Assembly: GCF_014077095.1 (NCBI RefSeq)
Contig: NZ_JACGVG010000035.1
Coordinates: 1 to 64,000 of the forward strand
Source: Colwellia sp. MB02u-6
GTDB taxonomy: Bacteria; Pseudomonadota; Gammaproteobacteria; Enterobacterales; Alteromonadaceae
DNA length: 64,000 nucleotides
Reading direction: 5' to 3'
Shown: in pieces, positions 33,415-52,503 of the stretch
How the letters are laid out: the number at the start of each line of letters is the position of its first letter
Numbering within the stretch: the first letter of the stretch is position 1
Program-made: the position numbers and the translations under genes
Notes under the pieces: model-generated
Databases searched by the model: none
What the model saw: the letters and a program-made list of their open reading frames with translations, nothing else
What the model was told of the DNA's origin: nothing

Positions 33415-35061
33415 ATGGCAGCAAAAGACATATTATTTGGTAACGACGCACGCGCAAAAATGCTTAAAGGCGTTAACGTACTTGCAGATGCAGTAAAAGT
33501 TACTTTAGGCCCTAAAGGTCGTAACGTAGTGTTAGACAAATCATTTGGCGGCCCAACGATCACTAAAGACGGTGTATCGGTAGCAAAAGAAATCGAATTA
33601 GAAGATAAATTCGAAAACATGGGCGCACAAATGGTGAAAGAAGTTGCTTCTAAAGCCAATGACGAAGCAGGCGACGGTACAACTACAGCGACTGTTTTAG
33701 CGCAAGCGATTGTAAACGAAGGTTTAAAATCAATTGCAGCGGGCATGAACCCAATGGATCTTAAACGTGGTATCGACAAAGCAGTTATTGCTGCAGTTGA
33801 AGCACTGAAAGGTTTGTCGCAAGAATGTAGCGACAACAAAGCGATTGAGCAAGTAGGTACTATCTCTGCTAACTCTGACGAAACTGTTGGTAAAATCATT
33901 GCAACAGCAATGGACAAAGTTGGCACTGAAGGTGTTATTACTGTTGAAGAAGGTCAGGCATTAACTGACGAACTAGACGTTGTTGAAGGTATGCAGTTTG
34001 ACCGTGGTTACCTTTCTCCTTACTTTATCAACAACCAAGAAAGTGGCAGTGTTGAATTAGAAAATCCTTTCATTTTATTAGTTGATAAAAAAATATCTAA
34101 TATCCGTGAATTATTAGGCACACTTGAAGGTGTTGCTAAATCGGGTAAGCCATTACTTATTATTGCTGAAGATGTTGAAGGCGAAGCACTGGCTACATTA
34201 GTAGTTAACAACATGCGTGGTATCGTAAAAGTTGCTGCTGTTAAAGCACCAGGTTTTGGCGACCGTCGCAAAGCTATGTTACAAGACATCGCGACATTGA
34301 CCAAAGCTACAGTGATTTCTGAAGAAATCGGTATGGAGCTTGAAAAAGCAACATTAGAAGACTTAGGTCAAGCTAAACGCGTGGTTATCTCTAAAGACAA
34401 TACGACTATTATTGATGGTATTGGCGAAGACGATGAAATTAAAGCACGTGTAGCGCAAATTCGCGGTCAAATTGAAGATTCTTCTTCTGACTACGATAAA
34501 GAAAAATTACAAGAACGTTTAGCTAAACTAGCTGGCGGTGTTGCGGTTATCAAAATTGGTGCAGCAACAGAAATGGAAATGAAAGAGAAAAAAGCCCGTG
34601 TTGAAGATGCATTACATGCAACACGTGCCGCGGTAGAAGAAGGCGTAGTTGCTGGTGGTGGTGTTGCCTTAGTTCGTGCAGCCGATGCTATTAAAGACTT
34701 AGAAGGTAGCAATGAAGACCAAACCCACGGGATCAACGTTGCTATTCGTGCAATGTCAGCTCCTTTACGTCAAATCGCCACTAACTCAGGTGACGAAGCC
34801 TCAGTAGTATTAAACCAAGTACGTATTGGCGGCACAGGTAACTACGGTTACAATGCGAGCAATAGTACTTACGGCGATATGTTAGAAATGGGTATTCTTG
34901 ACCCAACTAAAGTAACGCGCAGTGCCTTACAATTCGCTGCCTCAGTTGCTGGCCTAATGCTAACAACAGAAGCGATGATCACCGACGCACCAACTAAAGA
35001 TGCTGGCGCACCTGATATGGGCGGCATGGGTGGTATGGGTGGAATGGGCGGTATGATGTAA
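33415..35061 (+). CDS. groEL: chaperonin GroEL
   Basis: The 60-kDa chaperonin subunit that folds proteins in an ATP-driven double ring with GroES. The sequence starts [16 protein letters not shown], contains [13 protein letters not shown], the ATP site [11 protein letters not shown] and [15 protein letters not shown], and ends in the GGM repeat tail [14 protein letters not shown] take ATG 33415 (548 residues) as it matches the family start and lies nine bases from the AAGGA site; the ATG at 33409 is too close. A palindrome and terminator follow. Copies of this 3' end recur at 43.46 and 52.37 kb. Confidence 0.98.
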
Positions 35062-35106
35062 TAGAATTTAAATTCTATTCTGATAAAGTTCTAACCACTT
35101 AAACGA

Positions 35107-35135
35107 AAGCCTGAATAGTAATATTCGGGCTTTTT
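35107..35135 (+). terminator. groEL terminator
   Basis: AGCCTGAATA pairs with TATTCGGGCT (one wobble), followed by T6. It is preceded by the perfect palindrome ATAGAATTTAAATTCTAT starting at the groEL stop (35061-35078). Confidence 0.92.
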
Positions 35136-35227
35136 TATTAGCTGCTTATCAATATCTAATAATACTTTTGTTATGTCTTAATTAATACAAAACCGGACGT
35201 TAACATCAATGGATTTTCGAGCTGTTT

Positions 35228-35359
35228 TTAGTGTTCATTAAACGTTGGGCTACCTTCACCTTGATAGTCAACAAAGCCACCATTGCCGACAGTCGCATAG
35301 TAGGATGGGTATTTCTTCAAAGTGGCTTTGGTGACGTTAGCTATTGTTTGTTCTTTAGG
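35228..35359 (-). pseudogene. orphan C-terminal gene fragment of unknown family
   Basis: The minus strand reads 43 codons without a start, bounded upstream by TGA and ended by TAA. The composition looks protein-like (KYPSYYATVGNGGFVDYQGE). It may be the tail of a gene truncated by the accessory DNA next to groEL. I do not recognise the family. Confidence 0.35.
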
Positions 35360-51788: not shown

Positions 51789-51800
51789 AGGAGCTGAGCA

Positions 51801-52169
51801 ATGAATGTTAATAAAAAAAAATTATCTATATACCTAATCATATTAAATATTTGTATTGTGGGATTCACTTTAACACTTAGTCACTTAATTAAATTAAAAG
51901 AATCTAGAATATTTCTCCAAAGCTATATGCAGTCAAGTATAAATATAGAACAAATAATACTTACAGAAGATTTAGAGCTAATTAAGAAAGCTTTACAAGT
52001 GTCAAATGGAGAAAAAAATACTGTTTTTAAACTATCGCAAGGTTTAACAGATAGCACGATTTTTCTATTTATCCTTAGTTCTACATTATTTTTTATTTTA
52101 TTTTCTATAAACATTTATTTTACAATAAAATTGAAAAGAAAAATTGATGATGAAAAGTTAAAACTTTGA
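51801..52169 (+). CDS. small two-helix membrane protein, candidate immunity partner
   Basis: A 122-residue protein with hydrophobic segments at about residues 8-28 (LSIYLIILNICIVGFTLTLS) and 85-108 (IFLFILSSTLFFILFSINIY) around a charged loop. AGAGGAG lies well placed before ATG 51801, 12 bases past the RHS stop, so the pair is probably cotranscribed. RHS toxins are normally followed by an immunity gene, and a membrane-active payload would fit a membrane immunity protein. The role is inferred from position only; no family is recognised. Confidence 0.6.
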   Translation: MNVNKKKLSIYLIILNICIVGFTLTLSHLIKLKESRIFLQSYMQSSINIEQIILTEDLELIKKALQVSNGEKNTVFKLSQGLTDSTIFLFILSSTLFFILFSINIYFTIKLKRKIDDEKLKL

Positions 52170-52372
52170 CAATTTGGTAGTTGATTTTTTTAGATAGAGT
52201 ATTTTGTAATAAATAAAGTGTTAGGAATCTTTTGTTACATGAAAAAACGATGTTTAATTACTTTTTAATAAGTTAGGGCTAACGTTTGAACTTTAGCGTA
52301 CAAGGTGGGGGCAGTGTTTCACCTATGAGATGAATCAATGTAAAATCAATAAGATAACCACTACATGAACAG

Positions 52373-52503
52373 CATGATTTAATAGGGTTAAAACTCTATA
52401 ATTATCGCTTTAACCATTTACAGAAAAGCCCGAATAGCAATATTTGGGCTTTTTTATTAACTGTTTATCAATATGTAATAACACTTTTGTTATATATTAA
52501 TTG
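52373..52503 (+). repeat. second copy of the groEL 3' end, terminator and downstream flank
   Basis: CAGCATGATTTAATAG leads into the dyad ATAGGGTTAAAACTCTAT, then the terminator GCCCGAATAGCAATATTTGGGC with T6. After it, TTATTAACTGTTTATCAATA and ACACTTTTGTTATAT match the bases behind the groEL terminator (TTATTAGCTGCTTATCAATA, TACTTTTGTTATGT). The match to the groEL flank is therefore longer than at 43.46 kb. Confidence 0.78.

Follow-up and report, generated by a model that had tools for sequence, protein, structure and literature searches.

The groEL 3′ end as a probable attachment site for serially stacked integrative units in Colwellia sp. MB02u-6 and related genomes

The 3′ end of groEL, through its core GGGCGGYATGATGTAA, very probably serves as attachment site for a family of integrative elements, units of which have been stacked serially behind the chaperonin gene. 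The stretch of DNA analysed here (the window) comprises 64,000 nucleotides of Colwellia sp. MB02u-6 (contig NZ_JACGVG010000035.1), and the block that follows groEL in it is, as read from the sequence, composed of three units, E1 to E3, spanning 35.06–43.47, 43.47–52.38 and 52.38–55.45 kb. Comparison with related genomes, which are designated below by our own handles, displays what would be the products of such a process, namely tail repeats, conserved ends, an integrase clade, a native-type flank beyond the units and cargo that is often more alike between genomes than groEL itself.

Three copies of the groEL tail

A preliminary description of this DNA had placed a groEL tail, a dyad and a terminator at three positions, and all of them are confirmed: core, dyad and hairpin with T-run occur in this order three times in the window when the sequence is read around the three coordinates (Table 1). 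Copies 1 and 3 have 116 nt in common at 79% identity, and short stretches of all three copies align at 84–89% identity in the terminator and at 74–76% in the core and dyad. Scanning 200-nt stretches along the window gives scores of 55–69 for copies 2 and 3, the next-best score elsewhere being 27, and the RNA folding z values of the three tails are −5.49, −5.58 and −4.56. A core plus dyad pattern, allowing up to three mismatches, has three matches in the genome, which are only these tail copies, no further one being found at this threshold. The tail copies are real, specific to the groEL locus and above chance.

Table 1. Positions of groEL, of the tail copies and of the predicted units in the window
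Feature	Position	Strand	Remarks
groEL	33409..35061	+	550-aa ORF; last 16 bases are the putative attachment core
Core copy 1, GGGCGGTATGATGTAA	35046..35061	+	groEL 3′ end including stop codon
Core copy 2, GAGCAGCATGATGTAA	43457..43472	+	sequence reading
Core copy 3, GAACAGCATGATTTAA	52367..52382	+	sequence reading
18-bp dyads	35061-35078, 43472-43489, 52382-52399		third imperfect
Hairpin and T-run (intrinsic terminator)	35105-35136, 43515-43546, 52423-52455		
Unit E1, 8.4 kb	35062..43472	+	ends with core copy 2
E1 left end (dyad and terminator)	35061..35136	+	RNA fold, left-end alignment
E1 right end	43372..43456	+	12-end model, E 4e-13 (model includes it)
E1 arm-like repeat, GGGGTATAAAACGGGGTATC	43384-43403		inside E1 right end
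Unit E2, 8.9 kb	43473..52382	+	ends with core copy 3
E2 left end (dyad and terminator)	43472..43546	+	RNA fold, left-end alignment
E2 right end, diverged	52288..52366	+	12-end model, E 7e-6
Unit E3, 3.1 kb	52383..55453	+	third tail to right end
E3 left end (dyad and terminator)	52382..52455	+	RNA fold, left-end alignment
E3 right end, core decayed	55364..55453	+	right-end model
E3 arm-like repeat, AGGGTATAAAGTGGAGTATC	55378-55397		inside E3 right end
Putative passenger block, ~740 bases	40856..41597	+	207-aa tyrosine recombinase ORF 40921-41544

A conserved right end and the unit map of the window

Most internal cores are preceded by a right end of about 85 bases, in which GGGGTATAAAGTGGGGTRTC, CCCAT, AAAAACAA and GATA follow one another before the core is reached. 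A 20-base arm-like motif, searched for with up to two mismatches, gives 26 matches in 17 of 118 genomes; these are located at groEL in 15 of 15 cases in the genus (that of G005 by synteny only) and in eight of 11 outside it, three of the 26 falling in unrelated coding genes. A right-end model trained on 12 right ends from six genomes yields 46 matches (E ≤0.05), all on the groEL strand and a few of them being left-end arm sites or weak, in 29 of 47 groEL-downstream pieces, which represent 46 genomes with the training genomes counted in. The same model gives no match in 73 control pieces (373 kb) and none in reversed pieces (1.1 Mb).

Rebuilt without the window genome, the model recovers 55364–55453 (E 5e-10), 52288–52380 (2e-6) and 43372–43407 (9e-4), and its next match in the window is the groEL core itself (E 0.19). 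As three right ends are found by a model that excludes this genome, the block is read as three units and not two; the two cargo segments first proposed have to be revised, since a third unit follows the third tail and is closed by its own right end. The model also marks the far end of seven of 11 integrase-bearing islands (G027, G078, G145, G189, G263, G267 and G428; E 3e-12 to 3e-3). The far right end of the G067 island is weak (E 0.043), and none is found for G102 and G122 within about 40 kb read, or for G028, whose integrase is broken, within 20 kb.

The cargo of E1 comprises a 149-aa ORF, a GGDEF-EAL protein, an FAD-binding monooxygenase-like protein, the 207-aa tyrosine recombinase discussed below and a 282-aa ORF, and that of E2 a PEP-CTERM protein, an incomplete DDE_3 transposase ORF, a 2095-aa teneurin-like YD-repeat protein and a 122-aa ORF, E3 holding an apparently incomplete IS110-type transposase ORF and a 190-aa ORF. 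The large E2 protein (45501–51788) is of the teneurin type, with TTR-like, NHL and YD-shell domains and an FN-plug below the cut-off. All boundaries of E1 to E3 are groEL-tail cores or right ends, which fits CIMEs, that is, elements with attL/attR-like repeats and no integration module of their own. No relaxase is detected by Pfam among 11 scanned cargo ORFs of the three units, nor a clade integrase (see below) in the window array, the best match of the genome lying on another contig at 28% identity; the array in this genome is probably now fixed. Short direct and inverted repeats are also present inside the units (36261–36459, 43065–43114, 41583–41679, 54084–54154 and 55147–55244). One pair of 50-base repeats at 36410 and 43065 (94%) flanks most of the E1 cargo and may represent the ends of a nested element, and a 63-base tandem duplication, 97% identical, lies at 55740–55865, right after the third unit.

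An integrase clade directly behind groEL

In G102 and G028 the arm-like motif has groEL on one side and an integrase gene on the other, this gene being whole in the former (396 aa) and broken in the latter. The G102 protein has Arm-DNA-bind_3, Phage_int_M and Phage_integrase domains, a set which, like the AlpA protein mentioned below, we take to go with the name P4-type. This integrase is matched at E 1e-60 or better in 54 of 394 genomes of the order, and its context was judged at 30 loci among the matches listed in these genomes: each of the nine integrases with 50% identity or more lies directly behind groEL, one of them (G428) having internal stops, and none of the 21 with 40% identity or less does. 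In a sample of the class (369 genomes) three match at E 1e-90 or better, again all behind groEL, so that the twelve clade members examined all sit directly behind this gene. Eight families are represented among them, and in the tree they group together, apart from 27 other integrases (support 100/99), the long branch L231 also joining the clade in an analysis for which the tool warns of long branches. A contig scan for named taxa returned 12 loci, none of them close (29–45% identity over the best segment), and five of 50,697 phage records match at E 1e-60 or better, the best at 36% identity.

The island of G027 encodes AlpA, a relaxase, a NikA-like protein, PrlF-YhaV and RadC, and from this set of proteins it looks like a mobilizable element. 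The ORFs of the integrase-bearing island of G145 (L223/L224) resemble, by eye, those of a type I restriction system together with further defence-like genes. In the genus, an intact integrase of the clade is found in none of the 17 genomes (best match 36%; G007 is 66% complete), so that no active helper is seen there. The first unit of G006 has a different integrase, of the DUF6538 type (L094:5036-6238), which adjoins a groEL-tail core and may be a second integrase that uses this site independently. This 400-aa protein was rejected as a general integrase, its best match being only in G006 among the 47 pieces. The host XerCD system acting at a dif-like site was also considered, the native core and flank being dif-like by eye, and was dropped once the P4-type clade had been found.

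Arrays and integrase-less units in related genomes

A groEL match is present in 17 of 17 genus genomes, and the corresponding downstream set comprises 18 pieces, most of them of about 20 kb or more (0.8 kb in G005, and 5 and 20 kb in G008). At least G000, G001, G006, G007, G011 and G014 have extra tail pieces behind groEL on its own contig, and G008 has one or more on a different contig; the core recurs as a boundary in the downstream regions, five times in G011. Some internal cores in G006, G007, G011 and G014 have no stop codon and the groEL copy retains it, as expected if the first core alone is coding. Arrays of groEL tails, which the preliminary description had proposed to look for in relatives, recur in genomes of the genus. 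Its interpretation is supported in part: insertion of mobile DNA at the tail of groEL, with the tail restored each time, is upheld, and the copies are not a generic terminator family. With borders set by hand, unit sizes are overall about 1–13 kb: E1, E2 and the units of G003 and G464 are larger, and most others have 1–5 kb and one to four ORFs of at least 100 aa. In other genomes the names given to cargo (toxin-antitoxin, helicase, AraC, type I restriction) were assigned by eye from the ORFs.

Integrase-less units usually start with the dyad and terminator, a left end of which 21 cases were aligned. A paired arm-like site within 400 nt is found in none of 18 dyad-type left ends versus seven of 13 integrase-type ones, which makes a simple two-armed excision of the former not obvious. 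This absence would be accounted for if the left ends were host groEL flanks, captured when a downstream right end recombines with the groEL core and takes the host terminator and adjacent genes along. To this proposal we give some credence, short of favouring it; it concerns how the units arose under the main reading and does not fully compete with that reading. A GAATA..TATTC terminator that can be common to native-type and dyad-type left ends, and the native-type left end in G012 and in unit 2 of G006, point in the same direction. Against it, a right end lies downstream in 12 of 15 genomes whose first flank is dyad-type and in none of ten whose first flank is native-type (Fisher p 1e-4; flank classes were sorted by eye, and related genomes are not independent), and from this distribution the dyad looks element-borne. 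The comparison uses 25 of the 47 pieces, leaving out integrase-type, unclassed, second-contig and contig-end flanks.

Serial integration at groEL would displace the old flank, and the sequence beyond 11 cores picked by eye (internal ones in G006 and G451, in the other nine cases the final core observed) matches the native-type flank of ten genomes, one of which (G012) itself holds a unit, at 68–92%, nine of 11 at 75% or more. Control values are 48–57% for the upstream side and 60–65% for dyad-type flanks, the match being weak in G015 (68%) and G145 (71%), and the flank at the end of several further arrays is a different one (G027, G037, G055 and G428). That the native-type flank might be a dispersed palindrome was tested in five genomes and rejected: it is single-copy at groEL in three (G002, G012 and G061), G004 has one full copy at groEL and eight partial ones, seven of these to a 52-base inner part, and no match is found in G000.

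In G007 the unit next to groEL starts with the left end of an island, followed by an arm-like site and by what are, as judged by eye, the initial codons of the integrase gene, after which it is truncated; a tblastn search for the clade integrase in this genome gave no match at E up to 1. Two proteins of this unit have relatives in the G027 island, which in one case is the AlpA protein. The unit looks like the fossil of an integrase-bearing island, in line with the reading of groEL as an attachment site.

Movement of units between genomes

The identity of integrase-less units between genera is higher than that of groEL in G012/G055 (90.5 versus 81.2%), G011/G055 (86.5 versus 82.1%), G014/G055 (85.5 versus 80.0%) and G085/G410 (83.3 versus 76.4%), and in G085/G011, a pair from different families, the cargo is not more alike (77.6 versus 80.0%). 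As the units (83–90%) thus exceed groEL (76–82%) in four of five between-genus pairs, they probably move. Within the genus, cargo and groEL identities are 87.7 versus 87.6% in G011/G012 and 90.7 versus 96.0% in G008/G012. Two units that occur separately, a helicase-like one in G012 and a toxin-antitoxin-like one in G014, adjoin each other in G055. The sister genome G012 is 97.7% identical to the window at the end of groEL and 95.3% beyond 58.6 kb; it is without all three window units at the groEL site and carries a different one, and this difference in occupancy indicates that the site is polymorphic. An empty-site genome already holding the copies, which would have spoken against insertion, is not found among the 17 genomes, G012 being compared at the groEL site only.

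Exchange of this kind could in principle be due to a hot spot of homologous recombination, in which homology in groEL and its flank would swap downstream blocks between strains and the tail repeats would be by-products. Such a hot spot would be served by the long flanking homology that groEL supplies, and it agrees with the dominance of integrase-less units in the genus, with the lack of a cognate integrase in its 17 genomes and with the finding of one gene pair (a 145–170-aa protein and an AraC-type one, by eye) behind different left ends across genomes. However, it predicts neither an arm-like right end before internal cores, common to integrase-bearing islands, nor the same cargo at different positions of an array, and we consider it unlikely.

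The 207-aa recombinase of E1 had been noted earlier as a minimal recombinase in the first cargo segment, and its location in the array, as a PF00589 protein, is what would favour it as the driver. This protein has a lone PF00589 domain and is present in only one of the 18 groEL-downstream pieces (17 genomes; two pieces are short, 0.8 and 5 kb), whereas the integrases linked to groEL belong to the P4-type clade. It is conserved only as a block of ~740 bases, 91–98% identical in four other genomes of two genera, where its flanks are unlike those in the window (two of the four share the upstream flank), and decayed pieces of the block are found elsewhere in the window genome. From these comparisons the recombinase looks like an unrelated passenger, resembling a solo mobile recombinase, and its role as driver is highly improbable. 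Finally, hairpin terminators with T-runs are commonplace, yet that the tails belong to a generic terminator family sitting behind many genes has a negligible probability, for the terminator pattern, at up to three mismatches, has three matches in the whole genome of 4,010,185 bases, every one inside the block, and the reversed control has none.

Proposed mechanism and its implications

Complete members of the family, as observed (about 15–31 kb), carry a P4-type tyrosine integrase just inside the left end and close with a right end formed by the arm-like repeat and a second core. We infer that the clade integrase joins the core of an incoming circle to that of groEL: the coding end and stop codon would stay intact, the element-borne terminator would replace the one downstream of groEL, and the old flank would be pushed away by the incoming element. 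Repeated entry would stack units at the same site, of which the window would hold three. Integrase-less units, with the same right end, usually the dyad and terminator at the left and mostly one to four cargo genes, may have arisen by integrase loss, or when a right end and the groEL core came to enclose and capture cargo. Later islands may move them in trans, or in cis together with a neighbour, as cis-mobilizable elements, the clade integrase presumably acting in both cases. A further step, put forward tentatively and with less than even confidence, would be a cassette system in which small integrase-less units with standard ends circulate between genera, stack, and are moved in trans by the integrases of visiting groEL islands; if so, the chaperonin gene would be an insulated docking point.

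The analysis provides an integrase clade and its 16-base target, which lies in an essential gene that is nearly universal, and the conserved ends make such arrays findable by sequence. If units move in trans, cargo would spread in very small pieces that integrase-based island finders would miss. The proposed mechanism also suggests how a chaperonin operon can tolerate insertion at its end, as the coding end and stop codon would stay and a terminator be brought along, so that new genes could be added behind groEL without breaking the chaperone.

Comparison with known systems

We met no report of groEL-tail islands in this group in the open literature; in the available parts of PMC3285670 and PMC9728531 the term groEL is used in other senses, and it does not occur in the main texts of PMC7542103, PMC12424338, PMC12884075 and PMC8138268. 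Both parts of the present reading are precedented, as far as the available portions of the sources go, since islands at the groEL end are known in staphylococci and tandem integrase-less islands at ssrA; no precedent was met in the open literature for their combination, for the integrase clade or for the standard ends that integrase-less units have. According to the available text of PMC8125051, staphylococcal phage-inducible islands (SeCISE48 and relatives) have the groEL 3′ end as attB and leave the gene unaltered, its last 18 bp overlapping the att site. The likeness lies in insertion at the groEL 3′ end; compared by description, those islands are phage-mobilized, whereas here one complete member has a relaxase and a NikA-like protein, and most units in the genus are stacked and without integrase. 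In Dehalococcoides, the accessible part of PMC3146451 describes tandem ssrA islands with this gene or its 20 bp repeat at their borders; 15 islands have no integration module, and such islands are proposed to be cis-mobilizable elements. Serial islands behind one single-copy gene are common to both systems, but ssrA and serine recombinases are involved there, and groEL and a clade of P4-type tyrosine integrases here, where, relative to that description, integrase-less units have conserved left and right ends in common.

Islands with P4-type integrases resemble the present elements in the domain order of the integrase and, in the case of G027, in an AlpA-type protein, and differ in that the target here is the groEL 3′ end and the clade stands apart from the remaining 27 integrases of the tree. 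Integron cassettes, finally, form arrays of few-gene units split by a common recombination site. The groEL arrays are alike in having few-gene units with a common recombination site, whereas their ends are of a different kind, terminator-bearing at the left and arm-like at the right, and enclose units of about 1–13 kb.
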